Of a stretch of 40,615 nt of DNA, positions 775 through 23,642 are shown piece by piece (position 1 is the stretch's first letter; every line of letters starts with the position of its first letter). The DNA is taken from positions 1-40,615 of IMG/VR virus record IMGVR_UViG_3300025853_000219, one strand, 5' to 3'. The translations under genes and the position numbers were made by a program. Source of the stretch: a virus. Under the pieces are notes generated by a model that did not search any database, had not been told where the DNA came from, and saw only the letters and a list, made by a program, of their open reading frames with translations.

Positions 775-782
775 ATAAATAT
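775..782 (-). promoter_or_regulatory. ATATTTAT box four bases before ATG of the 770 gene
   Basis: Coding-strand ATATTTAT spans -12 to -5 relative to the ATG at 770 and directly follows the stop codon of the preceding gene. There is no Shine-Dalgarno sequence. It is one of nine such elements with identical spacing in the window. It could be the -10 element of a late promoter or a translation-start signal. Confidence 0.5.
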
Positions 783-1846
783 TACATTTTTGCAAAATAT
801 CTTCTTTGTAGTCTTTCTGCTACCGTATAACCTAATTCATCAGCAGAGTTCTTTAAAACATCAATAGCATTTCCTAAATGATCCCGACGTATCATTAAAT
901 TATGTTTGCCGTTGTTATATCCCATCTTAGAATCAACGCCACATTCTTTTAAACGATAAGCATACCCATTTATAGCGGAGTAATCTTCACTTATAAATCC
1001 ATTTACATACTCTTCCTCAAAAACAGACTCATTTACAGGTTTTGATTTTGGTTTCATATCAATTTCATATACAGTTCCATCAGCACCCAAAATTTCACCA
1101 TGCCAACCGTCTAATTTACTGTGTGAGGTCAATACTTTGTCAACCGTAGGTAACTTTTCCATCGATGTGATGATTGAATTCATGCTAGTTGATATTTTTT
1201 TAACATCCATCATTTCTTCCAACGATTCTTTTATTATTTCTTTTAATTGTTCTTTCATATTATCCAAAGGTAATCCAACCTGTTGTAATTTATCTTCCCA
1301 TTTTTGTTTCCATCCAATATCTGACAATTTTAATCCAGCTTCTTTAAATTTAGAAGACCATAATTTGCTCCATTCTTGACTTTCATTATAGTCAAATCCA
1401 GTATAATCGGGTTTAACAAATTGCCATTTGTGGTGATATATTTGACCAACTTTACGAAGGCCTGTTTTTTCTTTATTTAAATCCACTGAGTAACCGTAAT
1501 CAACAAGGGGTTCTCTTGCTGAATCAAAGTCGGAACTCTGTAAAAAACTAATTTTGTTTTCTTTTGGGGAATATTTGATTATATTGTATGTTTTGATGTC
1601 ATCTCCAATTAATGATAATGCTTTGGATAATACATCGGGTGGAACTATATCATCAACATACGTCTTGTGAAAATACAATGCACCTCCAATGTATTTGCCA
1701 ACTCCATATTGTTTTCTTAAATTTTCATCAATTTTTTCAAAAGTCTCTGGATCACGATCTTGTTTATTAGCAGTAGCATAATAAACTTTCTTTCCCGCTT
1801 CTTTTCCATATTGATCTTGAAATTTCTTTATGATGTCTTTTGGCAT
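782..1846 (-). CDS. Hypothetical protein with internal leader-like motif
   Basis: This is a 354-residue protein. Residues 1-40 (basic helix, then KKVYYATANKQDRDPETFEK) resemble a short domain I recall from many phage proteins of unknown function. The middle is Trp/Lys-rich. Around residue 197 there is MKEQLKEIIKESLEEMM, which matches the [I/L]-x-E leader found at the start of neighbouring proteins. That Met (ATG at 1258) has a weak GGA 5 nt upstream and could be an internal start giving about 158 residues. The C-terminus looks like a compact domain with LMIRRDHLGNAIDVLKNSADELG. It begins 4 nt after the stop of the upstream gene, so it is probably co-transcribed. Function unknown. Confidence 0.75.
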   Translation of the reverse strand: MPKDIIKKFQDQYGKEAGKKVYYATANKQDRDPETFEKIDENLRKQYGVGKYIGGALYFHKTYVDDIVPPDVLSKALSLIGDDIKTYNIIKYSPKENKISFLQSSDFDSAREPLVDYGYSVDLNKEKTGLRKVGQIYHHKWQFVKPDYTGFDYNESQEWSKLWSSKFKEAGLKLSDIGWKQKWEDKLQQVGLPLDNMKEQLKEIIKESLEEMMDVKKISTSMNSIITSMEKLPTVDKVLTSHSKLDGWHGEILGADGTVYEIDMKPKSKPVNESVFEEEYVNGFISEDYSAINGYAYRLKECGVDSKMGYNNGKHNLMIRRDHLGNAIDVLKNSADELGYTVAERLQRRYFAKM

Positions 1847-2914: not shown

Positions 2915-3502
2915 ATGATCAAATTAAAAGACTTGTTAAATGAAACTGAAACTGAAATTATTTCAGAATGGGTTTCATATGATCAATTGAAATCATCGAC
3001 TGATCAAAATTTTCCAACTAGGTTACAAACAACCAAGAATGTTAAAACATCTCCGCCTAAATTTGTTATGTTACGTGATGGCAACGTGTCTTTGAAATTT
3101 GATTTTAGATCATTTCCATCTGTAGAAGGAAAATCTCATAGAGGATATATTAAATTTGCACCAGCTAAATCCGATGAAAAATCAATGATGGGTAAAGTGG
3201 GAATCTGGTGGAAGTCAGTTAGACAAAAATTTAAACAATTTGTTAATAAGAAAATACCGCCTCAAATTTTGAAAGGTGAAGATCTAAGACAAATGAAATG
3301 CAAAGTTTCATGTGATTGCAAAGATTTTAAATATCGTATGGAAAAAGCAAATCAACTTCAAGGAGCATCCGATATAGAATTTTCAAATGGCGCTCTTCCA
3401 AATGTAACAAATCCTACATTTGAAACGGGATTATGTAAACATTTATTGGGATGTTTGAATCATCTACAAGGTGATGTGGAATTGAGAGAAGAAGAAAATT
3501 AA
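2915..3502 (+). CDS. SWIM-type zinc-finger protein with capsid-targeting-like leader
   Basis: This 195-residue protein has a leader MIKLKDLLNE, ten residues ending in L-N-E, very close in layout to the T4 MKTYQEFIAE sequence. The C-terminal part has a SWIM arrangement C133-x-C135 ... C174-x-H176 (SCDCKDFKYR ... GLCKHLL), with a conserved-looking NPTFETG segment between. I recall SWIM proteins of this layout in many T4-related viruses; their role is not established, though SWIM fingers bind DNA or proteins. It is the only non-mobile gene on the plus strand. It converges on the amidoligase gene with a 27-nt gap. Confidence 0.85.
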   Translation: MIKLKDLLNETETEIISEWVSYDQLKSSTDQNFPTRLQTTKNVKTSPPKFVMLRDGNVSLKFDFRSFPSVEGKSHRGYIKFAPAKSDEKSMMGKVGIWWKSVRQKFKQFVNKKIPPQILKGEDLRQMKCKVSCDCKDFKYRMEKANQLQGASDIEFSNGALPNVTNPTFETGLCKHLLGCLNHLQGDVELREEEN

Positions 3503-3521
3503 TCAAGATCCGGTTTCTCTG
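3501..3521 (+). repeat. Direct repeat copy 1 flanking the amidoligase-kinase gene
   Basis: The 21-bp sequence AATCAAGATCCGGTTTCTCTG recurs with one mismatch at 5652-5672. Read on the minus strand, both encode an EKPDLD-stop tail. Here it belongs to a 13-codon mini-frame beginning MQDSNLSEKPDLD. It looks like a remnant of the 3' end of the 5650-5928 gene. Confidence 0.7.
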
Positions 3522-3529
3522 ACAAATTG

Positions 3530-5641
3530 CTATCTTGCATAATAATTAGCTCTTACGTTGTTTGTGAACCCAAAATCAATTAATACAGGTTCATCCTTGC
3601 CGCCTCGATTTACAATTCCCCAACTACTAGGTCTTACCAGGTCGCCAACTTCCATGTCAATATTTCCAACCAAATCTACCAATTGTGAAGCATACTCATG
3701 TTCCCACAATTCATCCATTCTTTCTTGTGAAATTTTATATGATCTATACGATGGCCCTCTTGAGTTAGGATTATTGGCAATTAAAAAAGACTCTAATTCT
3801 TCTAAAGACAATCCCAACAAGTGTTCCAATTTTTTCTTATTTCGATTGATGGGAATTGCCAACTCCATTTCAACCCAATATGGCATATCATGTTTATCGT
3901 CGTAATCAATAATGTTAGCAGTTATATCCATTTGACCAAAATATCCATCAGTTTCAACTTCGTTTTGTGCCAATCCTTTACCGTTTTTTGCTAACTTTAA
4001 TACCTTATTATTATCAATTTGAAATACAACACGAGAAGAACCTGCTCCTAATTTCTTCAAGCGGTCATTAGCGTATTTAACCTTCCCTCTATAAGAAGGA
4101 ATGTTATTAAATTCTTCCATAGAAAAACTTTTAGGGTAATCTTCGTTTATACTCTTTTTATTGGAATCATCAAATTTATCGATTAACGATCTTAATTTCT
4201 TATGAGAATCCATATTAGGGTTTTTAATCATCGCAAGGAACTTGTTACGTTTGTTTAACGGCATTCCTTTTAACGCTTTGACGAGTGTTTTTCTGTCATC
4301 GTTTTTGAAATATTTCAATCCTTCGACTCCTGTGTGTTCACGATCCTTCATATCATCTGGGGATATTCCGGATGGGAGTTTACTAGAAGATTTGTCATCA
4401 TCGAATATAATTTCAATCTTTCCTCCTGGAATACGTTTTAATTTAACCACATTGCCTTTTTCTCCAAAAACAACATCCTTGCGTCTTTTGGCAACATGAG
4501 GCAAAACCAAAAAATATTCAATCCATTTTAAAAATTTCTTTGGTTTGGAAATGATCTGTGATGAAAAATATCTAAATTCAATAGTTCCTTGTTTAACGAA
4601 TGCTGTTGTGTTTGTTCCAAAATATTTTCCAATATCTTTTACTATTTGCAATAACTCAATTTCTGAAACAAACGTTGACTGTTTAAAATGGTTTTTTAAT
4701 ATATGATATAACTTTAAATGTAAAACGTCATTTAAATTAGCCCAAGAAGTAAATTTTCTGTCTGGAGAAATATCTTTCTTTATCTTGTCTTCATCAACTA
4801 ACGTAGCCATAACAAGAGAATCAAACCAGTTAAGATCAGGCACACCAACATGAACATGAGCAGAAGAGCCACCGTGAACTTTGAAATTATCGTGAATAAA
4901 TTTCATTAACTTTACCAACAACGGAAAATCCTTTTTAGTCAAGTGTCTACTAGCAACTTCAACCATATTGTCGTGTTCCGGAAAAACTGCCCAAGTGGTT
5001 TCGTCCGGATCATCACCAACAGATTCACCCAAATCCTCCAAAAAATTCGTTACCGATGATATAATTTCCTCGACGTTGTTATAGTCGCCAAATAAATTAT
5101 CAATGTCGTCAGAATCCAAATAACGATCCAATTGATTATTGGTAAACACGTTCTCACAGAAGTCATCCATATTATTATTTTTTTCAAAATGCTCCCATTT
5201 ATTGTAAATTTCCTCAACCTCATCTCGTTTGACATCCCATTTCTCTAAATCAATTTTGTATTCTTCTTTTGAATCGTAATCTTCTCTTTCAGGCTTAGGA
5301 TTTTCTTCCGTCCATGTTACAACATCAATAGGCCCATACGAATCATCCCAGTCGTTTACTGAATTATTTCGATTTAATTCAAATCTTTTTTGTTCTACAA
5401 AATTGTCATAATCATATTCAAAGCTACCGGGAAGGTTATTTTTTAAATACTTAGCGACAATATCTTTATTGTTGAACAATAAAGCTACCAAATCAATATC
5501 GTTTTTAGAAGAAAACTCAAACTCTACTCCAAATGTTCCACCGTCAAGAGTGGATTTGCCATGTTTAGATTTCAATCCACGTTTTATACTAGCAGTTTTG
5601 CCGAATGGTATTTTTTCCTGTATAATGTCTTTTAAATTCAT
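3530..5641 (-). CDS. Amidoligase fused to a protein-kinase-like domain, with leader
   Basis: This is a 703-residue protein. I chose ATG 5641 (MNLKDIIQE), since a TTG four codons earlier would overlap the previous gene and spoil the leader. Residues 38-42 are GVEFE; near 260 comes SSAHVHVG and near 355 TIEFRYF. These three signatures are those of the amidoligase_2 family (glutamine-synthetase-like fold, ATP-dependent amide bond formation). Residues about 525-703 look like a kinase fold: a Gly-rich loop GAGSSRVVF (near 533), Lys in VLKLAK, and LIDFGFT near 688 as a DFG-like motif. The two activities in one leader-bearing chain suggest a head-packaged modifying enzyme. Substrate unknown. The gene is bounded by 21-bp direct repeats. 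Confidence 0.85.
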   Translation of the reverse strand: MNLKDIIQEKIPFGKTASIKRGLKSKHGKSTLDGGTFGVEFEFSSKNDIDLVALLFNNKDIVAKYLKNNLPGSFEYDYDNFVEQKRFELNRNNSVNDWDDSYGPIDVVTWTEENPKPEREDYDSKEEYKIDLEKWDVKRDEVEEIYNKWEHFEKNNNMDDFCENVFTNNQLDRYLDSDDIDNLFGDYNNVEEIISSVTNFLEDLGESVGDDPDETTWAVFPEHDNMVEVASRHLTKKDFPLLVKLMKFIHDNFKVHGGSSAHVHVGVPDLNWFDSLVMATLVDEDKIKKDISPDRKFTSWANLNDVLHLKLYHILKNHFKQSTFVSEIELLQIVKDIGKYFGTNTTAFVKQGTIEFRYFSSQIISKPKKFLKWIEYFLVLPHVAKRRKDVVFGEKGNVVKLKRIPGGKIEIIFDDDKSSSKLPSGISPDDMKDREHTGVEGLKYFKNDDRKTLVKALKGMPLNKRNKFLAMIKNPNMDSHKKLRSLIDKFDDSNKKSINEDYPKSFSMEEFNNIPSYRGKVKYANDRLKKLGAGSSRVVFQIDNNKVLKLAKNGKGLAQNEVETDGYFGQMDITANIIDYDDKHDMPYWVEMELAIPINRNKKKLEHLLGLSLEELESFLIANNPNSRGPSYRSYKISQERMDELWEHEYASQLVDLVGNIDMEVGDLVRPSSWGIVNRGGKDEPVLIDFGFTNNVRANYYAR

Positions 5642-5649
5642 ATATATTT

Positions 5650-5928
5650 TCAATCAAGATCTGGTTTCTCTGGTAACTCCATATCAAGTTCATTATATAA
5701 CTTGTCAATGTGTTCTCTAGCCCAACTTAAATACTTCCAGTGCATTCTGTCAGTTTCGTCTTTTTTGTTTTGCCATGTTGTGTTGTCTTGAATTTGTTGT
5801 AAAGTAACCGTCATTTGTGACAACTTAGCATTAGTTTCAAAATGTTGTTTTAATGACCAACCACCAAGAGCTAACGTTACGCTTAGTAAAAATCCTACTA
5901 ATAATTGTATGATCGTATTGTTGTTCAT
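5650..5928 (-). CDS. Small membrane protein with one N-terminal TM helix
   Basis: This is a 92-residue protein. Residues about 5-25 (IIQLLVGFLLSVTLALGGW) form a single hydrophobic helix. The remainder is a polar, helical tail with a possible coiled coil, ending EKPDLD. Its size and topology are like phage holin-type or spanin-type proteins, but no family signature is visible. The gene follows a terminator (5950-5972) and has ATATTTAT four bases before ATG, so it appears to start a new transcript. Its stop codon lies just inside the 5' flank of the amidoligase gene. Confidence 0.7.
   Translation of the reverse strand: MNNNTIIQLLVGFLLSVTLALGGWSLKQHFETNAKLSQMTVTLQQIQDNTTWQNKKDETDRMHWKYLSWAREHIDKLYNELDMELPEKPDLD
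5652..5672 (+). repeat. Direct repeat copy 2 flanking the amidoligase-kinase gene
   Basis: AATCAAGATCTGGTTTCTCTG matches 20 of 21 bases of the copy at 3501-3521, 2,151 bp away. It encodes the EKPDLD end of the 5650-5928 membrane protein on the minus strand. Confidence 0.7.
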
Positions 5929-6090: not shown

Positions 6091-7176
6091 ATGAAATTTA
6101 TTAGATCATCAAAATGTTCATTAAAATTTTCTACTAATAAGAAACGTAGTGAATTGGAATATGTGTTAAATGAATATTCAAAGGTTGTTAATTTTTTTAT
6201 TGAATATTTCTGGAATAAAGAAAAATTAGATAAAGGTTCATTATTAAAACCTATTGTTGATTTGCCACAAGAAACTACTTGGTTATCTGCACGTTTAAGA
6301 AAAGTTGCAGCTAGGGAATCAATTGATATGATACTAGCGTCAAGAGAACGATGGAAAAATAAACCAGATAAAATGAAGAAACCCACTCATAAAGGTGATA
6401 GAATATATTGTTCATCAACTATTGCAGATTTACAAGAATCTAATTCTTCATTTGATTGTTATATTAGATTAACATCAATCGGTAATAAAATTAAATTAGA
6501 ACTTCCTATTAAGAAACATAAACAATTCAATAAATGGGAATCTAAAGGTAAAAGATTAAATTCCTATGTTATTACTAAAAATTATATTCAATTTTCATTT
6601 GAAATGGAAGTTGATAAAAAGAAAACAGAAGGAAAAACAATTGGAATTGATACTGGTATTAAATGTCTTGCAACAACATCTGAAAATCAAAGAATTGGTG
6701 ATAATATAGAAAATATCATTGAATCCATAAAAAGATGTAAACAAGGAAGTAAAAGACAAAATCAATTAAGACTTTATTTAAAACATTATATAAACACTTG
6801 TGCCAAAGAAGTGTTTAAACAGAATCCAAGATTACAACGAATTGTGGTTGAAAGATTAAAAAATATGAATTTCAAAACTAAAACTAATCGTAAGATTGGT
6901 AAAGGTTTGCGAAAATCTATTGGTAATTGGAATTATAGGTATTGGTTAGATAGGATACAAAGAGAATGTGAAGAAAACCGTGTTTGTTTCACTTCTGTTA
7001 ATCCTATGTATACTAGTCAATCTTGTAACCAATGTGGTCATACTGATAGGACAAATAGATCAAAACAAGATACTTTTAAATGTGTTAATTGTGGTCATAC
7101 TGACCACGCTGACCATAATGCTGCTAAAAATATCTTGGATTTAGGAGTCTCCCTAGTTTACCGTAGGGGAAAATAA
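6091..7176 (+). CDS. tnpB: TnpB-family RNA-guided nuclease (IS200/IS605-type OrfB)
   Basis: This is a 361-residue protein with a complete set of RuvC-like catalytic positions: D187 in GIDTGIKCLATT, E254 in IVVERLKNMN and D341 in DHNAAKNI. A zinc ribbon C312/C315...C331/C334 lies between the last two. The length is typical for compact TnpB proteins. It lacks a TnpA partner, so movement would need help in trans, or it acts as a homing-type nuclease among the neighbouring endonucleases. The guide RNA of this family is usually encoded at the 3' end of tnpB and just beyond. It is on the plus strand, opposite most genes, and inserted in an intergenic gap. The frame is intact. Confidence 0.93.
   Translation: MKFIRSSKCSLKFSTNKKRSELEYVLNEYSKVVNFFIEYFWNKEKLDKGSLLKPIVDLPQETTWLSARLRKVAARESIDMILASRERWKNKPDKMKKPTHKGDRIYCSSTIADLQESNSSFDCYIRLTSIGNKIKLELPIKKHKQFNKWESKGKRLNSYVITKNYIQFSFEMEVDKKKTEGKTIGIDTGIKCLATTSENQRIGDNIENIIESIKRCKQGSKRQNQLRLYLKHYINTCAKEVFKQNPRLQRIVVERLKNMNFKTKTNRKIGKGLRKSIGNWNYRYWLDRIQRECEENRVCFTSVNPMYTSQSCNQCGHTDRTNRSKQDTFKCVNCGHTDHADHNAAKNILDLGVSLVYRRGK
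7151..7168 (+). other. Hairpin at the 3' end of tnpB (possible end structure or guide-RNA scaffold)
   Basis: CCCTA (7151-7155) pairs with TAGGG (7164-7168) around an 8-nt loop, inside the last codons of tnpB. IS605-type right ends and TnpB guide-RNA scaffolds often contain hairpins here. The RNA is not demonstrated. Confidence 0.35.
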
Positions 7177-7194: not shown

Positions 7195-8847
7195 TTAAAG
7201 TAACGGTTTCCATATATACTTTAAATTGCCACAATCGTATATTCGATCATATCCATTCATTTGCATATTTTCATACTCCGTTAACTCAGAATCAAACACG
7301 TTTAACTTGTTTTTCAATAAGGATTTTCTGAAATTAAATCGATGGTGTCTTTTATTGTATCCGTTTTTAAAATACCAAAAATTAACAGGAGTAATTCCAT
7401 CCAGAACGAACCCTATCTGATCATACAACGTGTTGTCTAAAGAAGAAAATCTTCTATCAGCATAACTTGTAACTTTTGTTGGGTTATAAGTTGAAGTAAA
7501 ATATTTAAATAATTTACCAGCCGCTCCAACTACTCGCTTGGATGTTGCAAATCTTGATAATTCATATTCATTTTCTTTTGACTTAGAACCTAATGCTACA
7601 CGATTCTCCGAGAATGTCATAACAGAAATGAGTTCGTCTTCATGGTATAATCCCAATTTAATCTTGCTTTTGTCTGACCCTTGTATGTGATTTGATTCAA
7701 GAAAAGTTCGTTTCAACTTAGAATCGATTTCTTTAACTTCACATTTTCTAGCATAAACAGCCTTCTCCGTGTCATTTCCAATTATTGATTTTAATTTTGA
7801 TTTTACAACATTCTGATTATTTATCCATTCGTCTTCAAATATATGAATCAAGCGGTAATCTTTTTCTTCACATGCTATAGTCTTGTCAATGTGATAATCT
7901 TTCCCTACGTGACTAAATGAATGATAATAAAACGAATCATATTCTATTGCTAATTTTAAATCTTCTATTACAATATCCAACTCTTTACCATCGATTATAT
8001 CACGTCGGTTGGTTGAAACTCGATCATCGCCTAAAATACTCTTTAGAAAATCAACAATCTCATGTTCACATACAGATCCTTTATTCAATGGATAACATTC
8101 AATACAACGAGGAAGATGACCACCATCAATGTGATCGCTGAATTCACTGTCACATTTTAAGCATTTGAATTTATAATTATGTCTTCGATCGGTATTAATA
8201 TATTCATCCAATGAAAATAAAGGTTGAACCTTTAAGTTTAATTTATGTATTGTATTTAATTTATTGTAAAATGTTTTTTTGTAAGCGGAATCCATCTTAC
8301 TTTTAATTTCAGTGGATTGTGATGGGTATTCGACTCCGTATCTTTCCAGATTAGACTGTTTGATGACATCCTTAACTTCGGCTGACTGAAATACATTATC
8401 AACTCCATATCGATCATTAACTGTAGATTTTACTTTTTGTTTAGTCTCGTCCAATTGAGATACGTTATCTACGCCTAATGTTTCTTTGGTTTTTTTCTTA
8501 AATTCATCTGTGGTGAAAAAATGACCGCCATATTTTTCATCCATTGTTTTTTGTATTTTGTCTTTAACTTCCTTTGTCTTGGAAGCATTATCAACTCCAT
8601 ACTTTTCCAAACACGTTTTTTTAGCCTTATCCACATTTACATAAGAAGAATCTCCATAACGCTCTAATTTCGTTTTCTTGATTTTCTCGATTCTATCTTT
8701 ATCATTAGCAGTAAATGAACTAGAACATTTTCCACAACAAAATCTTTGATTGCGTGATTTTAATGCTTCAAATCTTTTTCCACATTGGTCACATGTTTTT
8801 TCTTCCCAAAATTTAGAATTCTTTTTCTTTTTGTCTTTATTATCCAT
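7195..8847 (-). CDS. Vsr-like (PD-(D/E)XK/EDxHD) homing endonuclease, copy 1
   Basis: This is a 550-residue protein (ATG 8847; a GTG directly before it is also possible). The N-terminal zinc finger is CDQCGKRF...CCGKC. Then come about six repeats of the type 'ERYGVDN-x-x-(Q/K)', each followed by a short helix, a DNA-reading module common in homing endonucleases. A second zinc ribbon (CLKC...CIEC) precedes the nuclease core with KELDIVIEDLKLAIEYDS, YHSF and LIHIFEDEW. The C-terminal 190 residues (HIQGSD, LGLYHEDELISVMTF, GAAGKLFKYF, SYADRRF) look like a GNAT-type fold. It has two close paralogues here. A host-type promoter lies directly upstream (8872-8899). Confidence 0.88.
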   Translation of the reverse strand: MDNKDKKKKNSKFWEEKTCDQCGKRFEALKSRNQRFCCGKCSSSFTANDKDRIEKIKKTKLERYGDSSYVNVDKAKKTCLEKYGVDNASKTKEVKDKIQKTMDEKYGGHFFTTDEFKKKTKETLGVDNVSQLDETKQKVKSTVNDRYGVDNVFQSAEVKDVIKQSNLERYGVEYPSQSTEIKSKMDSAYKKTFYNKLNTIHKLNLKVQPLFSLDEYINTDRRHNYKFKCLKCDSEFSDHIDGGHLPRCIECYPLNKGSVCEHEIVDFLKSILGDDRVSTNRRDIIDGKELDIVIEDLKLAIEYDSFYYHSFSHVGKDYHIDKTIACEEKDYRLIHIFEDEWINNQNVVKSKLKSIIGNDTEKAVYARKCEVKEIDSKLKRTFLESNHIQGSDKSKIKLGLYHEDELISVMTFSENRVALGSKSKENEYELSRFATSKRVVGAAGKLFKYFTSTYNPTKVTSYADRRFSSLDNTLYDQIGFVLDGITPVNFWYFKNGYNKRHHRFNFRKSLLKNKLNVFDSELTEYENMQMNGYDRIYDCGNLKYIWKPLL

Positions 8848-8871
8848 CACATACGGTTACTCTTTCATATA

Positions 8872-10884: not shown

Positions 10885-10913
10885 TTGAAGTATTACAATA
10901 TAAATGATATACA
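10885..10913 (+). promoter_or_regulatory. Sigma-70-like promoter for the 10925 endonuclease
   Basis: TTGAAG (10885-10890) and TATACA (10908-10913) are 17 bp apart on the plus strand. The -10 box lies 11 nt before ATG 10925, which argues for that start over the ATG at 10904. Confidence 0.6.
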
Positions 10914-10924
10914 ATTATAATTAT

Positions 10925-12436
10925 ATGCCAGTTATTGAGCCTATGGGTAAACGAAAATCAGTTATAAAGAGTTGTAAGTATTGTAATGGTGAATTTGAGG
11001 TTAATTATTATAAACGTAATGTTCGTAAGTATTGTAGCAAGAAGTGTTCTAATGCTGATCCTGAAACAAAGCGTAAAATTGCGGAAAGTCAGCGTAAAAC
11101 GTATATTGAAAAATATAACGTAGACCATCCAATGAAGACTAATAAGGTAAAGGATAATTTTAAGCGTTCAATGTTAAAGAAATATGGAGTTGAAAATGCT
11201 CTGTGTAATGATGTTATAAAGCAAAAAGTTAAAGATACTAAGTTTGATAAATACGGAGATAGCAATTACAATAACATACAGAAAAGCAAACAAACGTGTT
11301 TAGAACGGTATGGGGTGGATAACATACGTAAAAGTAAACAATTTAAAGATAAGTGTTTTGATACAAAGAATGCCACGGAATATTCTACATTATTAGAGTA
11401 TGCTAAACAAATAAACGTTGAGTTGTTATTTGATATTCAGGAGTTCACAGGTTACCGCACAGATAACATATATTCGTTTAAATGTAATACGTGTGGTAAA
11501 GTGTTTGAAAATTATGTATATTCATTGCAGAATGTTTTCTGTAGTGATTGTGAGGTTGTTATAGATTATAAAACAGAACTATTTGATTTTTTAAAATCCG
11601 AAACAACATATAACATACAAACTAATGTAAAAAAACCTTTCATTGGATTACCGCTCGATTTTTATATAGAAGAATTAAACTTAGCAATAGAATTATGTGA
11701 TCATAAATCTCATTCAGAAAAAGCCGGTAAGTTAAATAAAACGTATCGTATAAATAAAACAAATAAGTGTATAATGAATGGTATAAATTTAATACACATA
11801 TTTGAATATGAATGGAAACAAAAAGCGGAAAACATCAAAAGCATACTAAGAACAAAATTAAACTCTAATAATATAAGAAAAATATTTGCTAGAAAATGTG
11901 AATTCGTTAAATTGTCAAAATCGGAAAAAAACGAGTTTCTACAAATAAATCATATACAAGGAAAAGATAAAAGTTCTTATGAATATGGATTGAAATATAA
12001 AAATGAAATTGTGTCTGTTATGACGTTTTGTAAAAGTAGATTTGATAAAAAAATACAATATGAAATAAGCAGATTTTGTAATAAGTTAAATACGTCAGTA
12101 ATTGGAGGAACGTCAAAATTATTTAATTGTTTTATAAATGAAGTTAATCCTGATACAATATTATCTTACGCTGATAGACGCTTGTTTGGTGGAGATGTGT
12201 ATAGAGAGTTAGGATTTGAGTTTTTTAAAAACACGTCACCTGGCTACCATTATATTACACCTGACTATAAAATGATTATAAACCGTATAAATTTTCACAA
12301 ACACAAACAAAAAGATAAACTTCAGACATTCGACCCAACATTAACCGAATGGGAAAATATGAAAGCTAATGGATTTGACAGAATATGGGATTGTGGAAAT
12401 TTGAAATGGGTGTATACAAAAAAACCGTTGAAATAA
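10925..12436 (+). CDS. Vsr-like homing endonuclease, copy 2 (divergent)
   Basis: This is a 503-residue protein when started at MPVIEPMG; the in-frame ATG at 10904 lies inside the promoter. Domain order matches its paralogues: zinc finger CKYCNGEF...CSKKC, YGV-type repeats, second ribbon FKCNTCGKVF...CSDC, nuclease core LPLDFYIEELNLAIELCD with HSEK and LIHIFEYEW, and the C-terminal domain (HIQGKD, GGTSKLFNCF, SYADRRL, MKANGFDRIWDCGNLKW). It has fewer repeats than the others. The core differs from the relatives at FNGNYWHSE-type positions (CDHKSHSE) and EDEW (EYEW), so activity is less certain. It is on the plus strand, next to the tube gene start. Confidence 0.87.
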   Translation: MPVIEPMGKRKSVIKSCKYCNGEFEVNYYKRNVRKYCSKKCSNADPETKRKIAESQRKTYIEKYNVDHPMKTNKVKDNFKRSMLKKYGVENALCNDVIKQKVKDTKFDKYGDSNYNNIQKSKQTCLERYGVDNIRKSKQFKDKCFDTKNATEYSTLLEYAKQINVELLFDIQEFTGYRTDNIYSFKCNTCGKVFENYVYSLQNVFCSDCEVVIDYKTELFDFLKSETTYNIQTNVKKPFIGLPLDFYIEELNLAIELCDHKSHSEKAGKLNKTYRINKTNKCIMNGINLIHIFEYEWKQKAENIKSILRTKLNSNNIRKIFARKCEFVKLSKSEKNEFLQINHIQGKDKSSYEYGLKYKNEIVSVMTFCKSRFDKKIQYEISRFCNKLNTSVIGGTSKLFNCFINEVNPDTILSYADRRLFGGDVYRELGFEFFKNTSPGYHYITPDYKMIINRINFHKHKQKDKLQTFDPTLTEWENMKANGFDRIWDCGNLKWVYTKKPLK

Positions 12437-12755: not shown

Positions 12756-13415
12756 TTACATTCTTCCCGTAGAATCTCTTGCAATAGACTGTCCCGCTGT
12801 TGGTGTGATTGATAACGGAATAATTCGTCCTCTACCTGATTGATATCCAACAGGAACATAAGTTGATGGAATTTTCTTTTTCTTTCTTAACAATATTGAA
12901 AATTTGTTAATCTTACCCTTAAATTCCTCCATTTCGTCACCTGAATGATCAGCAGGCCCTTTCAATTTCAGTGGAATTGCAACTTTCTTACTATCATCTC
13001 CTAATTTACCGTCTTGGAAATATATTGTAATCATAGATGTTTCGGGTGCTTCTTCCTCCAACACTTCTTTTATCAGTGGAAGTAACATTTTCTTTATTCG
13101 TTTATTTTCTGATAATTTGCGTTTTTTGTATTCAGCAATTACAACTTCAGTAATGCTCTCTTTAATTAAATTTCTGATTGATTCTTTCATTGTCTTTTCT
13201 CCTGATAATGCTTCTCCTAAATCGGAACCAGCTGCTAATCTAGCATTAATTTCATCAATATCAAACTGTTCATCATTTTCAGATGAAACGCTTGCCACAT
13301 TTCCGTTTTGAATTTCTACGTTATATATCTCTTCATCATCAGCAACGATTATGGTATCGTTGCCAATGAGATCGTTGCTCTTTAAGAAATAATTCTGTTT
13401 AGGATCGTCAACCAT
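12756..13415 (-). CDS. Hypothetical protein with internal leader and internal start
   Basis: This is a 219-residue protein whose ATG overlaps the upstream stop as TAATG. Residues 1-75 are acidic. At residue 76 begins MKESIRNLIKESITEVV, the same [I/L]-x-E leader seen at the N-termini of neighbours. Its ATG (13190) is preceded by AGGAG at 8-nt spacing, so a second product of 144 residues (12756-13190) is likely. A second similar helix (LLPLIKEVLEEE) follows. The C-terminal 100 residues are beta-rich with MITIYFQDGKLGDDSKKVAIPLKLKG and a Gly/Arg tail. Function unknown; a head-internal or scaffold-type role is inferred from the leader. Confidence 0.8.
   Translation of the reverse strand: MVDDPKQNYFLKSNDLIGNDTIIVADDEEIYNVEIQNGNVASVSSENDEQFDIDEINARLAAGSDLGEALSGEKTMKESIRNLIKESITEVVIAEYKKRKLSENKRIKKMLLPLIKEVLEEEAPETSMITIYFQDGKLGDDSKKVAIPLKLKGPADHSGDEMEEFKGKINKFSILLRKKKKIPSTYVPVGYQSGRGRIIPLSITPTAGQSIARDSTGRM
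13188..13204 (-). promoter_or_regulatory. Internal ribosome binding site and start
   Basis: Within the 12756-13415 gene, AGGAG lies 8 nt before an in-frame ATG at 13190 that begins MKESIRNLIKES. It is a better Shine-Dalgarno sequence than the one at the full-length start. Confidence 0.55.
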
Positions 13416-14254
13416 TATACCAATCCAGCTTTTTGTAATGTTAAATGAATAGTTTTCCTAGCAGAAGCGTCATTTAAATATGCTTCTGATAAATCTTCTA
13501 CAATATCACCCCATTGTTTACCAGCAGGAGAAGAAGTATATTCTTCAGCAAGTTCCATCAATAAAGAAGACTGTAAATGTTGTAATGTATTAAATAACTC
13601 ATTACGACTTAAATCACTTTGAACTTCACTTACAATTTCTTGATCTGATTGTGGGCCAGAACGACTCATTTTCATTGTCTGTGGATAAACGATTCCACCG
13701 ACCATATCAAACGCTCTTTCGGAAATCAATCCTTTGTCGTGAGCTTTGTATTGGGTTGCTGGTTTTACAATTCCCAATTGTTCTTTAATTGTATTTTCGT
13801 TTAACGTTTCATTTTCGTATGATTGAGGTTCAGTGTGTTCTCCGCAATTTGAACAAATGTCGCTCATTTTAATTGGAGCACCACAACAAGAAGATACTTC
13901 TTCAGATTCATTCATAACATGATTTACGTAATCGTCAGCCTCACCACTAGCAGGAGTCAACATTTTACTTTGGAATTCATTCTTTGATATTTTTCCGAAG
14001 TGAAATTGATTTATCAAATCTCTTGCAATACTGATATCCATGTTTGGATTATTATTTTTCAACCAGTTATGTAAAGGTTTTGAATTTCCCAATCCAATGT
14101 GTGCTGAAATAGCATTCCATAAACTAGAAATTTTAGCTTCCGTTTCTTCGGAATTTTCATCTAATTTAGAAGGAGAACTACATCCAATGCTTGTAACAGG
14201 TTTAATGCCTGCTAAAACAAACATTCTTTCATTTAATAATTTTTTATCGCTCAT
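13415..14254 (-). CDS. Leader-bearing protein with small zinc ribbon
   Basis: This is a 279-residue protein. The first residues MSDKKLLNE end in L-N-E at position 9, matching the leader pattern, followed by RMFVLAGIKPVTS. Around residue 120 there is a four-cysteine ribbon, SCCGAPIKMSDICSNCGEH. The rest is soluble and mixed, with a helical C-terminus (SSLLMELAEEYTSSPAGKQWGDIVEDLSEAYLND). ATATTTAT lies seven bases before ATG, with AAGG between as a weak Shine-Dalgarno sequence. The stop overlaps the next gene as TAATG, so the two are translationally coupled. I do not recognise the family; packaging in the head is inferred. Confidence 0.78.
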   Translation of the reverse strand: MSDKKLLNERMFVLAGIKPVTSIGCSSPSKLDENSEETEAKISSLWNAISAHIGLGNSKPLHNWLKNNNPNMDISIARDLINQFHFGKISKNEFQSKMLTPASGEADDYVNHVMNESEEVSSCCGAPIKMSDICSNCGEHTEPQSYENETLNENTIKEQLGIVKPATQYKAHDKGLISERAFDMVGGIVYPQTMKMSRSGPQSDQEIVSEVQSDLSRNELFNTLQHLQSSLLMELAEEYTSSPAGKQWGDIVEDLSEAYLNDASARKTIHLTLQKAGLV

Positions 14255-17334: not shown

Positions 17335-17342
17335 ATAAATAT
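17335..17342 (-). promoter_or_regulatory. ATATTTAT box four bases before ATG of the 17330 gene
   Basis: It spans -12 to -5 and directly overlaps the stop codon of the upstream endonuclease gene. Confidence 0.5.
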
Positions 17343-19087
17343 CATTCACTTTCCCAAATAAATTTTAAATTTCCACAATCCCAAACTCTATCATATCCAT
17401 TTAATTTCATATTTTGCCATTCTGTTAATTTTGGATCAAACGTATTGAGTAATTTTGGAAGCTTGTGTTTTTGAAATGACGATCGGTGATGTCGTTTGTT
17501 TACTTTGCTATTTAAATGAAAATACCAATAATTAGGCTCTGTTTTTGAAACTAAATTAAATCCAAGTACATTATATAAATTACCTATGCTAAATCTACGG
17601 TCAGCATAACTTATTATTTGTTTTGGTTTATAATTTTTTGTGAAATATTTAAACAATTTACTAGCACCACCTATACATCTAATAGATGATGAAAATCTAA
17701 TTAACTCATAGTGATTTTGTTGTGGTTTATTTCCAAGTGATATACGCAAGTCGCCAAATGTCATGACAGAGATCAGTTCATCTTCGTGAAACAGACCCAA
17801 CTTAATCTTACAACGATCTTTTCCTTGTATGTGATTTTTTTCCAAAAATTCGTTCTTTTGTTTTGACTTAATTTCCTTTACAATACAATTTCTAGCATAA
17901 ACGGAATTTTTGTTACATTTTAATATTGATCTTAATTTTGACTTGACGATTTCCTTGTTTAACAACCATTCATCTTCAAATATGTGAATTAATTGTATTC
18001 CCGATTTTTCACATTGTTCTGTTTTATCTAAATGATATTTTTTATGTTTTCCGCCTGTGTATTCTGAGTGCCAATAATTTCCGTTGAACTCTATAGCTAC
18101 ATTAATTTCTGGTAAGTAAAAATCCAATTCCTTTTTGCCTAATATGGTTCTATTGTGTAGGTGTATTTTACCGTCGTATATTGTTTTTATAAACTCTTCA
18201 ATCTCAATTTCAAAGGTATTGTCTTTGGTGTCACATTTAGGACACATTGGGTATTTTCCGTTATTAACATTATATTCAAATTCCAATGAACATTTATTGC
18301 ATGAAAATTCATATTTATTATTAATTCCTGAATATTCATTAAATGAGAATTTTGGAGAAAATCTATTATCCGATGAAATTCTGTCATACACGCGATCGAA
18401 GTGGTCTTTCTTAAATGTCTTTGTTTTAGCAAAATTATCCACTCCATATCGTTTTATACAAGTTTCCTTCATTTTTTGTTTTACTTTTTCGTTTTGGGCT
18501 GGATTTTCAACTCCATATCTTTCAATACATGTTTCTTTTGCTTTTTCTGAATTCACATATATTGGATTCCCATATCTTTCTAATTTTTTGTTTTTTGTTT
18601 TTTCAACGAATTCATCCGTTTGCGTGTAATATTCAACTCCATGTTTTTCTAAATTATATTTTATATTTGATTGTAATCGCTTGTTTTTAACTTCATCTGT
18701 TTTCATGAATTTTTCAAAACAAACATCCGAACAACATGATTTTTGTCTCTTTTTATATACCTCAAATTCATTCCCACATGTTATACATTTCCTAAATTCC
18801 CTTGCTATTTGTTTTTTAATAATTCCGTTACATTTAGCAGAACATGTTTTTCTATATCCTTTGTAATAACCATCGAATTTACATTCGTCATCACAAACTA
18901 TACATTTCTTATCATCGTCGCCGTTAAACAAAAAATACATCTTTTCTGCGAATTTTTTACCCGGTAAAAGATCGATTTCGTTGTATATTCTTTTATATTT
19001 TCTTTTCAATTGTATTGAAAAATTTTCACGATTTTTTTCAATAAAATTTAATATGACTTGTTTTGTTATGGTAGAATTTATTTTCAT
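17342..19087 (-). CDS. Vsr-like homing endonuclease, copy 3
   Basis: This is a 581-residue protein, the longest of three paralogues. It has an extra N-terminal Cys-rich region (CIVCDDEC...CSAKC), the zinc finger CITCGNEFEVYKKRQKSCC, YGV-type repeats, and a ribbon CNKC...CPKC. The Vsr-like core is intact: KELDFYLPEINVAIEFNGNYWHSE and LIHIFEDEW. The C-terminal domain (NHIQGKD, LGLFHEDELISVMTF, GGASKLFKYF, SYADRRFS, NGYDRVWDCGNLKFIW) is closest to that of the 8847 gene. It lies between the sheath gene terminator and the membrane-protein pair. A near-consensus host promoter precedes it. Confidence 0.9.
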   Translation of the reverse strand: MKINSTITKQVILNFIEKNRENFSIQLKRKYKRIYNEIDLLPGKKFAEKMYFLFNGDDDKKCIVCDDECKFDGYYKGYRKTCSAKCNGIIKKQIAREFRKCITCGNEFEVYKKRQKSCCSDVCFEKFMKTDEVKNKRLQSNIKYNLEKHGVEYYTQTDEFVEKTKNKKLERYGNPIYVNSEKAKETCIERYGVENPAQNEKVKQKMKETCIKRYGVDNFAKTKTFKKDHFDRVYDRISSDNRFSPKFSFNEYSGINNKYEFSCNKCSLEFEYNVNNGKYPMCPKCDTKDNTFEIEIEEFIKTIYDGKIHLHNRTILGKKELDFYLPEINVAIEFNGNYWHSEYTGGKHKKYHLDKTEQCEKSGIQLIHIFEDEWLLNKEIVKSKLRSILKCNKNSVYARNCIVKEIKSKQKNEFLEKNHIQGKDRCKIKLGLFHEDELISVMTFGDLRISLGNKPQQNHYELIRFSSSIRCIGGASKLFKYFTKNYKPKQIISYADRRFSIGNLYNVLGFNLVSKTEPNYWYFHLNSKVNKRHHRSSFQKHKLPKLLNTFDPKLTEWQNMKLNGYDRVWDCGNLKFIWESE

Positions 19088-22817: not shown

Positions 22818-23642
22818 TTATTCGGAATATCCAAATGTTTCAAAATACCACCGATGGTTATTGACAATCCAATCACAAATTTCTTTTCCAAGAACTTCCT
22901 CGTAGTCTTGTTTTAATGGTTCCAGTTTATTTCGTATTTTGTGATCTCCATACGGTCTGTGAATTACATCGTTTTCGTGTGTTGTTTGTTCTATGTTGTT
23001 AAAGTCATGTTCAAACCTATCGACTTCAAGATAATCATAAATTGTATTCATTACTGATTGCGGGTCATTAAACAATCCTTCATATCTGATAAATTGTATG
23101 TTTGTTCTGAATTCCCTATTTAACATATCCTCTAATCTATCTAATGAAATTCCAATAGGCATACCATTTTTCCAAACATCTATACGTTTTGCTGGTGTAG
23201 TTCCACTCAATTCTACCGGGTTATCTGTTCCTGTGTATATTTCTGGATTCTTTCTATAATTTTTTTCCATACTAGCGAATATAGAACGCAAATCTCTAAC
23301 CATACAAATCATTTTGGGTTTATATGGTAAAAATTTTTCAACCCAATCGTAATGTATTCCCCAACCACGACTTTTATCAACTATATACGGTTTGTCTGTG
23401 ATCGCTTCATAATATCCGTGTAACGCTCCATTACAATATCCCCTCCATGCCTTTAAATCTCGTTCCTCATCCGTAGTAGCCTTAAATTCATCAGACGTTG
23501 TAAAAGCATTTCTACTTTGATATAACATCTCTAATACACCTGACGTTGGTGTGGTATGAAACTCTGGATTTTGTGCTAATATGTTTTGTAATAATGTAGA
23601 ACCAGCACGTGGCATTGAACTTTGAAAAAATATTTTACTCAT
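22818..23642 (-). CDS. Sulfotransferase
   Basis: This is a 274-residue PAPS-dependent sulfotransferase-like enzyme. The 5'-phosphosulfate loop is MPRAGSTLL at residues 10-18. The 3'-phosphate-binding part is MVRDLRSIFAS, with R116, D117 and S120. IQFIRYEGLFNDP and the C-terminal helix are also typical of the family. It transfers sulfate to a hydroxyl or amine, often on sugars. The start overlaps the end of the glycosyltransferase gene by 8 nt, so the two are made together. A natural reading is a two-step decoration, glycosylation then sulfation, of a virion or host glycan. Confidence 0.88.
   Translation of the reverse strand: MSKIFFQSSMPRAGSTLLQNILAQNPEFHTTPTSGVLEMLYQSRNAFTTSDEFKATTDEERDLKAWRGYCNGALHGYYEAITDKPYIVDKSRGWGIHYDWVEKFLPYKPKMICMVRDLRSIFASMEKNYRKNPEIYTGTDNPVELSGTTPAKRIDVWKNGMPIGISLDRLEDMLNREFRTNIQFIRYEGLFNDPQSVMNTIYDYLEVDRFEHDFNNIEQTTHENDVIHRPYGDHKIRNKLEPLKQDYEEVLGKEICDWIVNNHRWYFETFGYSE

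Follow-up and report, generated by a model that had tools for sequence, protein, structure and literature searches.

A phage gene that looks like an amide-bond-forming enzyme joined to a trimmed-down kinase behind an apparent head-import tag

Introduction

Among the closest described systems are the head-packaged proteins of phage T4. As excerpted from PMC9026906, the T4 protease gp21 cleaves after the motif L/I-x-E, and head targeting of IPIII needs no more than its first 10 residues. A second point of comparison is provided by the polyvalent proteins, in which conflict enzymes such as kinase, ART, GNAT and nucleotidyltransferase domains are mixed within phage proteins (Iyer et al. 2017, PMC5512222). 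Kinases of these proteins are described, in sections of the same source, as devoid of the C-terminal subdomain with the active site retained, and as characterized by a Gln in the last N-lobe strand, a Glu before strand 2 and an insert between His and Asp; the word amidoligase occurs nowhere in its main text (PMC5512222).

Here, a gene was analyzed that lies in a stretch of viral DNA of 40,615 nucleotides (IMG/VR record IMGVR_UViG_3300025853_000219, positions 1 to 40,615; hereafter the window). The gene looks like a predicted amide-bond-forming enzyme joined to a trimmed-down kinase behind an apparent head-import tag. The original prediction knew of no described system in which this combination is delivered from a phage head; no title among the amidoligase-and-phage matches listed reported such a fusion, although titles are weak evidence of absence. 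Literature searches for packaged kinases or cargo polyproteins listed a single paper, on phage P1.

Results

The features of the locus are collected in Table 1. The fusion gene is carried by the minus strand, a detail left unstated in the original prediction, and its frame is open over 3530..5653, with an upstream TTG start at 5653 and the ATG of MNLKDIIQE at 5641. Counted from this ATG, the motifs named in the original prediction were recovered at residues 38 (GVEFE), 262 (HVHVG) and 353 (TIEFR) for the amidoligase and at residues 532 (GAGSSR) and 687 (LIDFG) for the kinase-like domain. Frame, profile matches and motifs together confirmed that both domains belong to one chain behind this leader. 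An identical 703-aa frame was found on a second IMG/VR contig (loci L002/L012) that shares 5743 bases with the window at 99.98% identity, and therefore the fusion is not an assembly slip of a single contig. No second amidoligase–kinase pair was found outside the window virus in the IMG/VR scans.

Table 1. Features of the fusion gene and its surroundings in the window (residues counted from the ATG)
Feature	Position	Strand	Details
Amidoligase/kinase-like fusion gene	3530..5641	-	703 aa from ATG, 704 codons including stop
Leader MNLKDIIQE, candidate capsid-targeting sequence	5615..5641	-	I-x-E at residues 7-9
Amidoligase_2-like domain, about residues 34-390	4472..5542	-	Profile matches, alignments, model
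Amidoligase key residues			G38xE40xE42, D224, E228, H262xH264, E284, R295, N344, G352, E355, R357
Long acidic insert, about residues 90-222 (about 130 residues)	4976..5374	-	Between GxExE and D224/E228 strands
INE498-500, candidate prohead-protease (L/I-x-E) site	4142..4150	-	At domain junction
Kinase-like domain, about residues 515-703	3533..4099	-	Profile match, alignment, model
Kinase-like key residues			G-loop 532, K549, E563, D667, S673, D689-F-G691
Direct repeat copy, at and just past fusion gene stop	3501..3534	-	Copy of upstream gene's 3' end
Direct repeat copy, 3' end of upstream gene 5650-5928	5652..5685	-	79% alike to 3501-3534
Neighbour gene, leader MIKLKDLLNE	2915..3502	+	SWIM zinc-finger match weak

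The amidoligase half was matched in a PHROG profile search by PHROG 7469, annotated as amidoligase enzyme (E 2.2e-7), and by PHROG 2443, also called amidoligase (E 1.6e-4). The Pfam model Amidoligase_2 (PF12224) was hit with E 0.002 and 18.5 bits, under its curated cut-off of 22, and the domain is therefore termed amidoligase-like here rather than a scored member of the family. Identity to L092, Vibrio phage VPp1 and Geobacillus phage GR1 was 24-25%, and in the alignment with these three relatives all the key residues of this half listed in Table 1 were invariant; in this 4-sequence alignment and a further one of 11 sequences (the window half and ten IMG/VR relatives), invariance held for G38, E40, E42, E228, H262, H264, R295, N344, G352, E355 and R357. 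An AF2 model, weak overall (pLDDT 54.6), placed the signature motifs on strands 37-44, 226-231, 260-266 and 353-358. Structural comparison of this weak model by VIA-align ranked glutamine synthetase best (Z 8.8, rmsd 3.5, 174 aligned), with 1tt4 at Z 8.3, YbdK at Z 8.1 and Dop at Z 7.2; Foldseek matches were weak (1tt4, E 0.24; YbdK, E 0.31), and a PDB profile search with the amidoligase alignment gave no match at E <= 1. The acidic insert is mostly missing from the aligned relatives and was largely modelled at low confidence. As a query for close relatives, the N-terminal half alone recovered the second contig of the same virus only, whereas the alignment retrieved 16 distant amidoligase loci, with no kinase fusion in the 12 whose frames were examined. 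The putative amidoligase keeps the residues expected of an ATP-using enzyme, from which we infer its activity.

The kinase-like half was matched by PHROG 4301, of unknown function (E 7.5e-8), and its relatives in Munch-type phages carry the annotation 'putative protein kinase'. Across 67 family sequences the beta-3 Lys, the second Gly of the G-loop and both residues of DxG were invariant, and the alpha-C Glu and the catalytic-loop Asp were each kept in 66. The window protein has the G-loop, beta-3 Lys, alpha-C Glu, catalytic Asp and the Asp and Gly of DFG. At the position of the metal-binding Asn the 67 sequences contain N (33), S (24), T (9) or L (1), the window residue being Ser673, and there is no His before D667, so that the His of HRD is absent. 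The chain terminates 12 residues past DFG; consequently, the C-terminal subdomain is missing and there is no normal C-lobe. A 54-sequence alignment yielded a confident AF2 model (pLDDT 90.3, pTM 0.84) for which VIA-align ranked CDKL1 best (Z 8.7, rmsd 3.5, 128 aligned), followed within about 1 Z by PKR, TTK, ULK1 and APH(2''); the aligned ranges in the top kinases end shortly past DFG. Foldseek placed the aminoglycoside kinases APH(2'') first (E 1.7e-5) and also matched protein kinases. None of the 54 family members matched a Pfam protein-kinase model at E <= 0.1, one matched PRK (phosphoribulokinase/uridine kinase family) at E 0.054, and the only match of the family in a PDB profile search was the secreted effector kinase SteC (E 0.0034). 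The family has an invariant Gln (Q559), located in the helix after beta-3. Scanning genome contigs with a 4-row kinase alignment produced 172 pattern matches and no relatives, so that the scan speaks neither for nor against bacterial or prophage copies. Judged from sequence, the kinase-like half is a member of a widespread phage family that goes undetected by Pfam kinase models, and it keeps the residues expected of an ATP-using enzyme. Since alignments and models back both of the predicted folds together with their catalytic residues (with the amidoligase model weak), neither absence of the two folds nor loss of the catalytic residues was found.

A scan of IMG/VR for the kinase module returned 80 loci, from which L012 (identical to the window), L091 (a weak match, E 2e-5) and rows whose domains were identical were removed to give a non-redundant set of 66. 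The module was standalone with a short leader in 37 members, fused in 12 and part of long leaderless proteins in 17; L042, at first counted as a fusion by its length, was moved to the standalone group because its likely start lies downstream. The module is C-terminal in the 12 fusions and stands at the front of the 17 leaderless proteins. Partners in the fusions comprised GNAT domains (L024, L059, L065 by eye, and L067 with a weak match), ART-PolyVal (L058, 929 aa), deaminases (L076, and L081 by likeness), a nucleotidyltransferase (L041, E 0.01) and, in L054, a ParB-like stretch seen by eye and lacking a Pfam match; among the loci scanned, the amidoligase partner occurred in the window virus only. 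On a tree of the module, 6 changes are required for the fused label, no fewer than 5 of which are forced by starred branches, and the window kinase forms its own lineage inside a clade of 34 rows. Fusion, as reconstructed on this tree, arose at least about five times. L026, L027, L071 and their relatives have the leaderless module at the front of proteins whose length reaches about 1300-1540 aa or more; poly(A) polymerase/CCA-type domains are additionally present in L026.

A motif resembling T4 prohead-protease sites, [LIVMF]xE, was present at the leader/domain boundary in 35 of the 37 standalone copies and in 9 of the 12 fusions, and in none of the 17 leaderless ones; as background, [LI]xE occurred in 19% of 16-aa windows outside the boundary zone of the same proteins. 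In standalone kinases the motif directly precedes the domain, as in LLE-APLP or LGE-DYP, and in the fusions it sits at the same place relative to the kinase domain: INE-DYP in the window, IDE-EYP in L058, LDE-VPLP in L054, LSE-VPLP in L067, VNE-MPLP in L041, LDE-MALP in L059 and L065, and LDE-MPLP in L076 and L081. The exact motif is missing from the other three fusions. This candidate cleavage motif is thus recurrent across independent fusions, and the likely protease cut site usually present at their joints is a hint that, in some phages, several host-modifying enzymes may be packed as a single chain. The window protein contains five [LI]xE sites, located in the leader, the acidic insert, the junction and, twice, within the kinase fold; in the kinase model, the junction falls within the flexible, low-confidence beginning (block means of 50 and 69). 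A front leader was visible by eye in the window protein, L054, L058, L059, L065 and L067, and not in the other six fusions. At 9 residues, the window leader is one under the range of 10-19 given for capsid-targeting sequences in the extracts of PMC9026906.

Leaders of this kind were also observed in other genes. The leader-motif pattern fits 9 of the 52 genes of the window virus, and in L084 the leader MKFADFLNE adjoins the leader MKFVDFLNE of a neighbour gene. Of the genes beside standalone kinases, 8 of 46 bear a leader, versus 11 of 164 further off; the counts were 0 of 9 beside fusions and 0 of 20 beside leaderless kinases, and internal Met residues showed the pattern in 0-8%. Taken together, these counts are suggestive only. 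In L013, the kinase is the middle one of a consecutive trio of genes whose leaders, MKSTRKYVRNILSE, MKFLRKYIRTILKE and MKIRHYIRQVLEE in gene order, are similar; the gene before it weakly matches ART-PolyVal, and the product of the gene downstream aligns with residues 163-264 of L058 at 53% identity over 104 positions. No similarity was found between L058 and the upstream gene of L013. Like parts therefore occur both ways in different viruses, as separate tagged genes (L013) and as a single chain (L058). A run of about eight adjacent genes, mostly with leaders like MKIDxLYESLLEE, was observed in the Alishewanella phages L003/L007, where the kinase ends the run; one of these genes matches ART-PolyVal and several others are ART-like by eye.

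Sheath and tube were identified by profile matches within the window; past its left end, the second contig gave matches to baseplate hub, SSB, UvsX, exonuclease and DnaB-like helicase. The virus is termed a myovirus because of sheath and tube together with the baseplate hub and other second-contig matches, and T4-like on account of the whole set. Head genes lie on neither contig: gp23 was found on neither G000 nor G001, the two contigs of the window virus, and its gp21-type protease was consequently not seen. Packaging genes were surveyed in relatives, namely 33 records hand-picked from the 80 IMG/VR loci and three named phages, to which the gp23 set added the window and its second contig (35 records). 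The same 19 records had both the gp21-type protease (PF03420; 19 of 33) and gp23 (PF07068; 19 of 35). Both were present in 17 of the 19 leader- or fusion-type records of at least 95 kb, and absent from the remaining two, G002 and G018 (102 and 154 kb). Of five leaderless records of at least 100 kb, one (G028) had both genes and four had neither. PF12224 was found in a single one of the 33 kinase-bearing records, as a separate gene.

The 19-nt core of the direct repeat that flanks the fusion gene occurs twice in the window, against 0.03 expected; gain of the gene by recombination beside gene 5650-5928 would fit this arrangement. Leader DNA of the fusion gene is 75% alike, over 28 nt, to that of the opposite-strand gene at 2915 (inverted pair I1). 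Other genes of the window were also recorded. A TnpB-like ORF on the opposite strand near the fusion gene (6091-7176, plus strand) matches a Cas12f1-like TNB domain (E 3e-16) and OrfB_IS605. Three related ORFs (7195-8850, minus; 10904-12436, plus; 17342-19087, minus) contain DUF7487, two of them also matching the Mom family and one an MTES_1575-type endonuclease domain; these are free-standing, perhaps homing, genes located among structural genes, in which a nuclease is coupled to a Mom-like domain. A sulfotransferase-family gene (22818-23642, minus; E 1.4e-16) lies amid structural genes. The product of 13415-14254 (minus) has a leader-like KKLLNERMFVLAGI echoed as KGLISERAFDMVGGI near residue 176 and could be another two-part cargo, and in that of 782-1846 (minus, 354 aa) a stretch resembling a leader, MKEQLKEIIKESLEEM, lies within the chain at residue 197, making a fusion of two cargo genes possible.

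Discussion

On balance, we lean modestly towards the view that the gene encodes a head-packaged effector of the T4 Alt type, targeted by its leader, cut at residue 9 and perhaps a second time at INE500, and delivering two host-modifying enzymes by ejection. MNLKDIIQE would serve for capsid targeting and bring the protein into the prohead core; cleavage by a gp21-type protease would follow after the I-x-E that ends at residue 9, and perhaps after INE500; an amidoligase and a small kinase-like enzyme would then be ejected along with the DNA and modify molecules of the host as infection begins, in the way that T4 Alt works through ADP-ribosylation. What we infer from the features described above comprises packaging and ejection, the two cuts, the two enzyme activities and their targets. 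A two-enzyme head cargo of a T4-like phage is the most likely account, and cutting of the chain in two before ejection leans slightly to the improbable side. The head-cargo idea of the original prediction is backed indirectly, by the leader, the common cleavage motif and the presence of gp21 and gp23 in relatives. Its further suggestion, that the kinase activates or marks the target of the amidoligase, found no support, because the module stands alone or is fused to domains of other kinds and a probable protease site lies between the two halves.

The same facts weigh on the quite unlikely alternative of a single, uncut bifunctional enzyme whose domains act on one target, the kinase for instance phosphorylating the group that the amidoligase uses, or one domain regulating the other. 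One uninterrupted frame on two contigs is consistent with this, and covalent linkage would hold the two activities together. However, a kinase module that is standalone in 37 of 66 members and elsewhere joined to GNAT, ART, deaminase, nucleotidyltransferase and other domains does not depend on an amidoligase, the junction is flexible and retains a protease motif, and a GS/GCS-type amidoligase uses ATP to activate its own carboxylate. It is also unlikely that the protein stays unpackaged inside the cell, its leader being an amphipathic start that arose by chance and LxE belonging to the fold of the kinase module. The motif could persist by descent, and ORF170 of XacN1, a standalone kinase, is unnamed in the main text of the virion proteomics paper (PMC5852040); yet all 17 leaderless copies retain the fold and lack the motif, four of the five large leaderless records are devoid of gp21 and gp23, and leaders are shared by neighbour genes (L084) and fit 9 of the 52 genes of the window virus.

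Compatible with packaging, and a minority possibility of some weight, is that the kinase-like half does not phosphorylate proteins and is instead an APH-like small-molecule kinase, an AMP or other transferase, or a nucleotide-binding adaptor. The absence of a normal C-lobe and of the His of HRD, Ser rather than Asn at position 673, the best Foldseek match to APH(2'') and the lack of Pfam kinase matches point this way, whereas VIA-align ranks protein kinases first (Z 8.7, with APH within about 1) and SteC (E 0.0034) is the sole sequence-profile match among solved structures. Finally, the fusion may be a recent accident or moron, in which two cargo genes recombined and were inserted beside gene 5650-5928 with no selected joint role. 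The flanking repeat of the upstream gene's 3' end, the restriction of the amidoligase–kinase pair to the window virus in IMG/VR scans and the single, separate PF12224 gene in 33 kinase-bearing records would all be expected of such an event. We regard it as rather improbable, given that both halves keep an open frame and their catalytic residues, and that the same kinase module was repeatedly fused to other enzymes.

Beyond this gene, head-cargo packaging could take a more general form, in which T4-like phages make cargo polyproteins with one leader, prohead-protease cuts at I/L-x-E joints and the minimal kinase usually last, the fused enzymes being those that other phages pack as separate leader-tagged proteins. 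We consider this generalization possible, at somewhat short of an even chance, and it is checkable against existing virion mass spectrometry data. If true, packaged enzymes that modify the host could be sought in uncultured T4-like phages by a simple sequence rule, a leader with L/I-x-E joints; a large family of kinase-like proteins outside Pfam would become candidate head cargo, and the chemistries that phages may deliver ahead of any expression of their genes would come to include amide ligation.

Comparison with known systems

The amidoligase half resembles Amidoligase_2 (PF12224) and the COOH-NH2 ligases of the glutamine synthetase/YbdK type in its signature residues and, in a weak model, its core strands, and departs from Amidoligase_2 families by the acidic insert, a Pfam score below cut-off, the fusion and the leader. 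The kinase-like half shares weak profile similarity in the N-lobe with SteC-type secreted effector kinases and fold similarity with APH(2'') kinases; unlike these, with which it has no overall sequence relation, it lacks a C-lobe. PHROG 4301 and the 'putative protein kinase' of Munch-type phages are the same family, but the Munch-type proteins are short and have no recognizable LxE leader. Like the kinases of polyvalent proteins, presumably Kinase-PolyVal in Pfam, the window family keeps active-site residues and lacks the C-terminal subdomain; unlike them, it matches no Pfam kinase model (0 of 54), and its modules have leaders and LxE boundaries that distinguish them from polyvalent proteins. 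Pfam and the features compared do not place this putative kinase family among the polyvalent-protein kinases. A further parallel is with T4 Alt and IPI-III, which likewise have a short N-terminal leader ending in L/I-x-E, in line with the T4-like gene set of the window virus and with gp21 and gp23 in most of its large relatives. Unlike T4 Alt, the window chain contains no ART and its packaging is a prediction; unlike both Alt and IPI-III, it combines two enzyme domains with a second candidate cut site between them.
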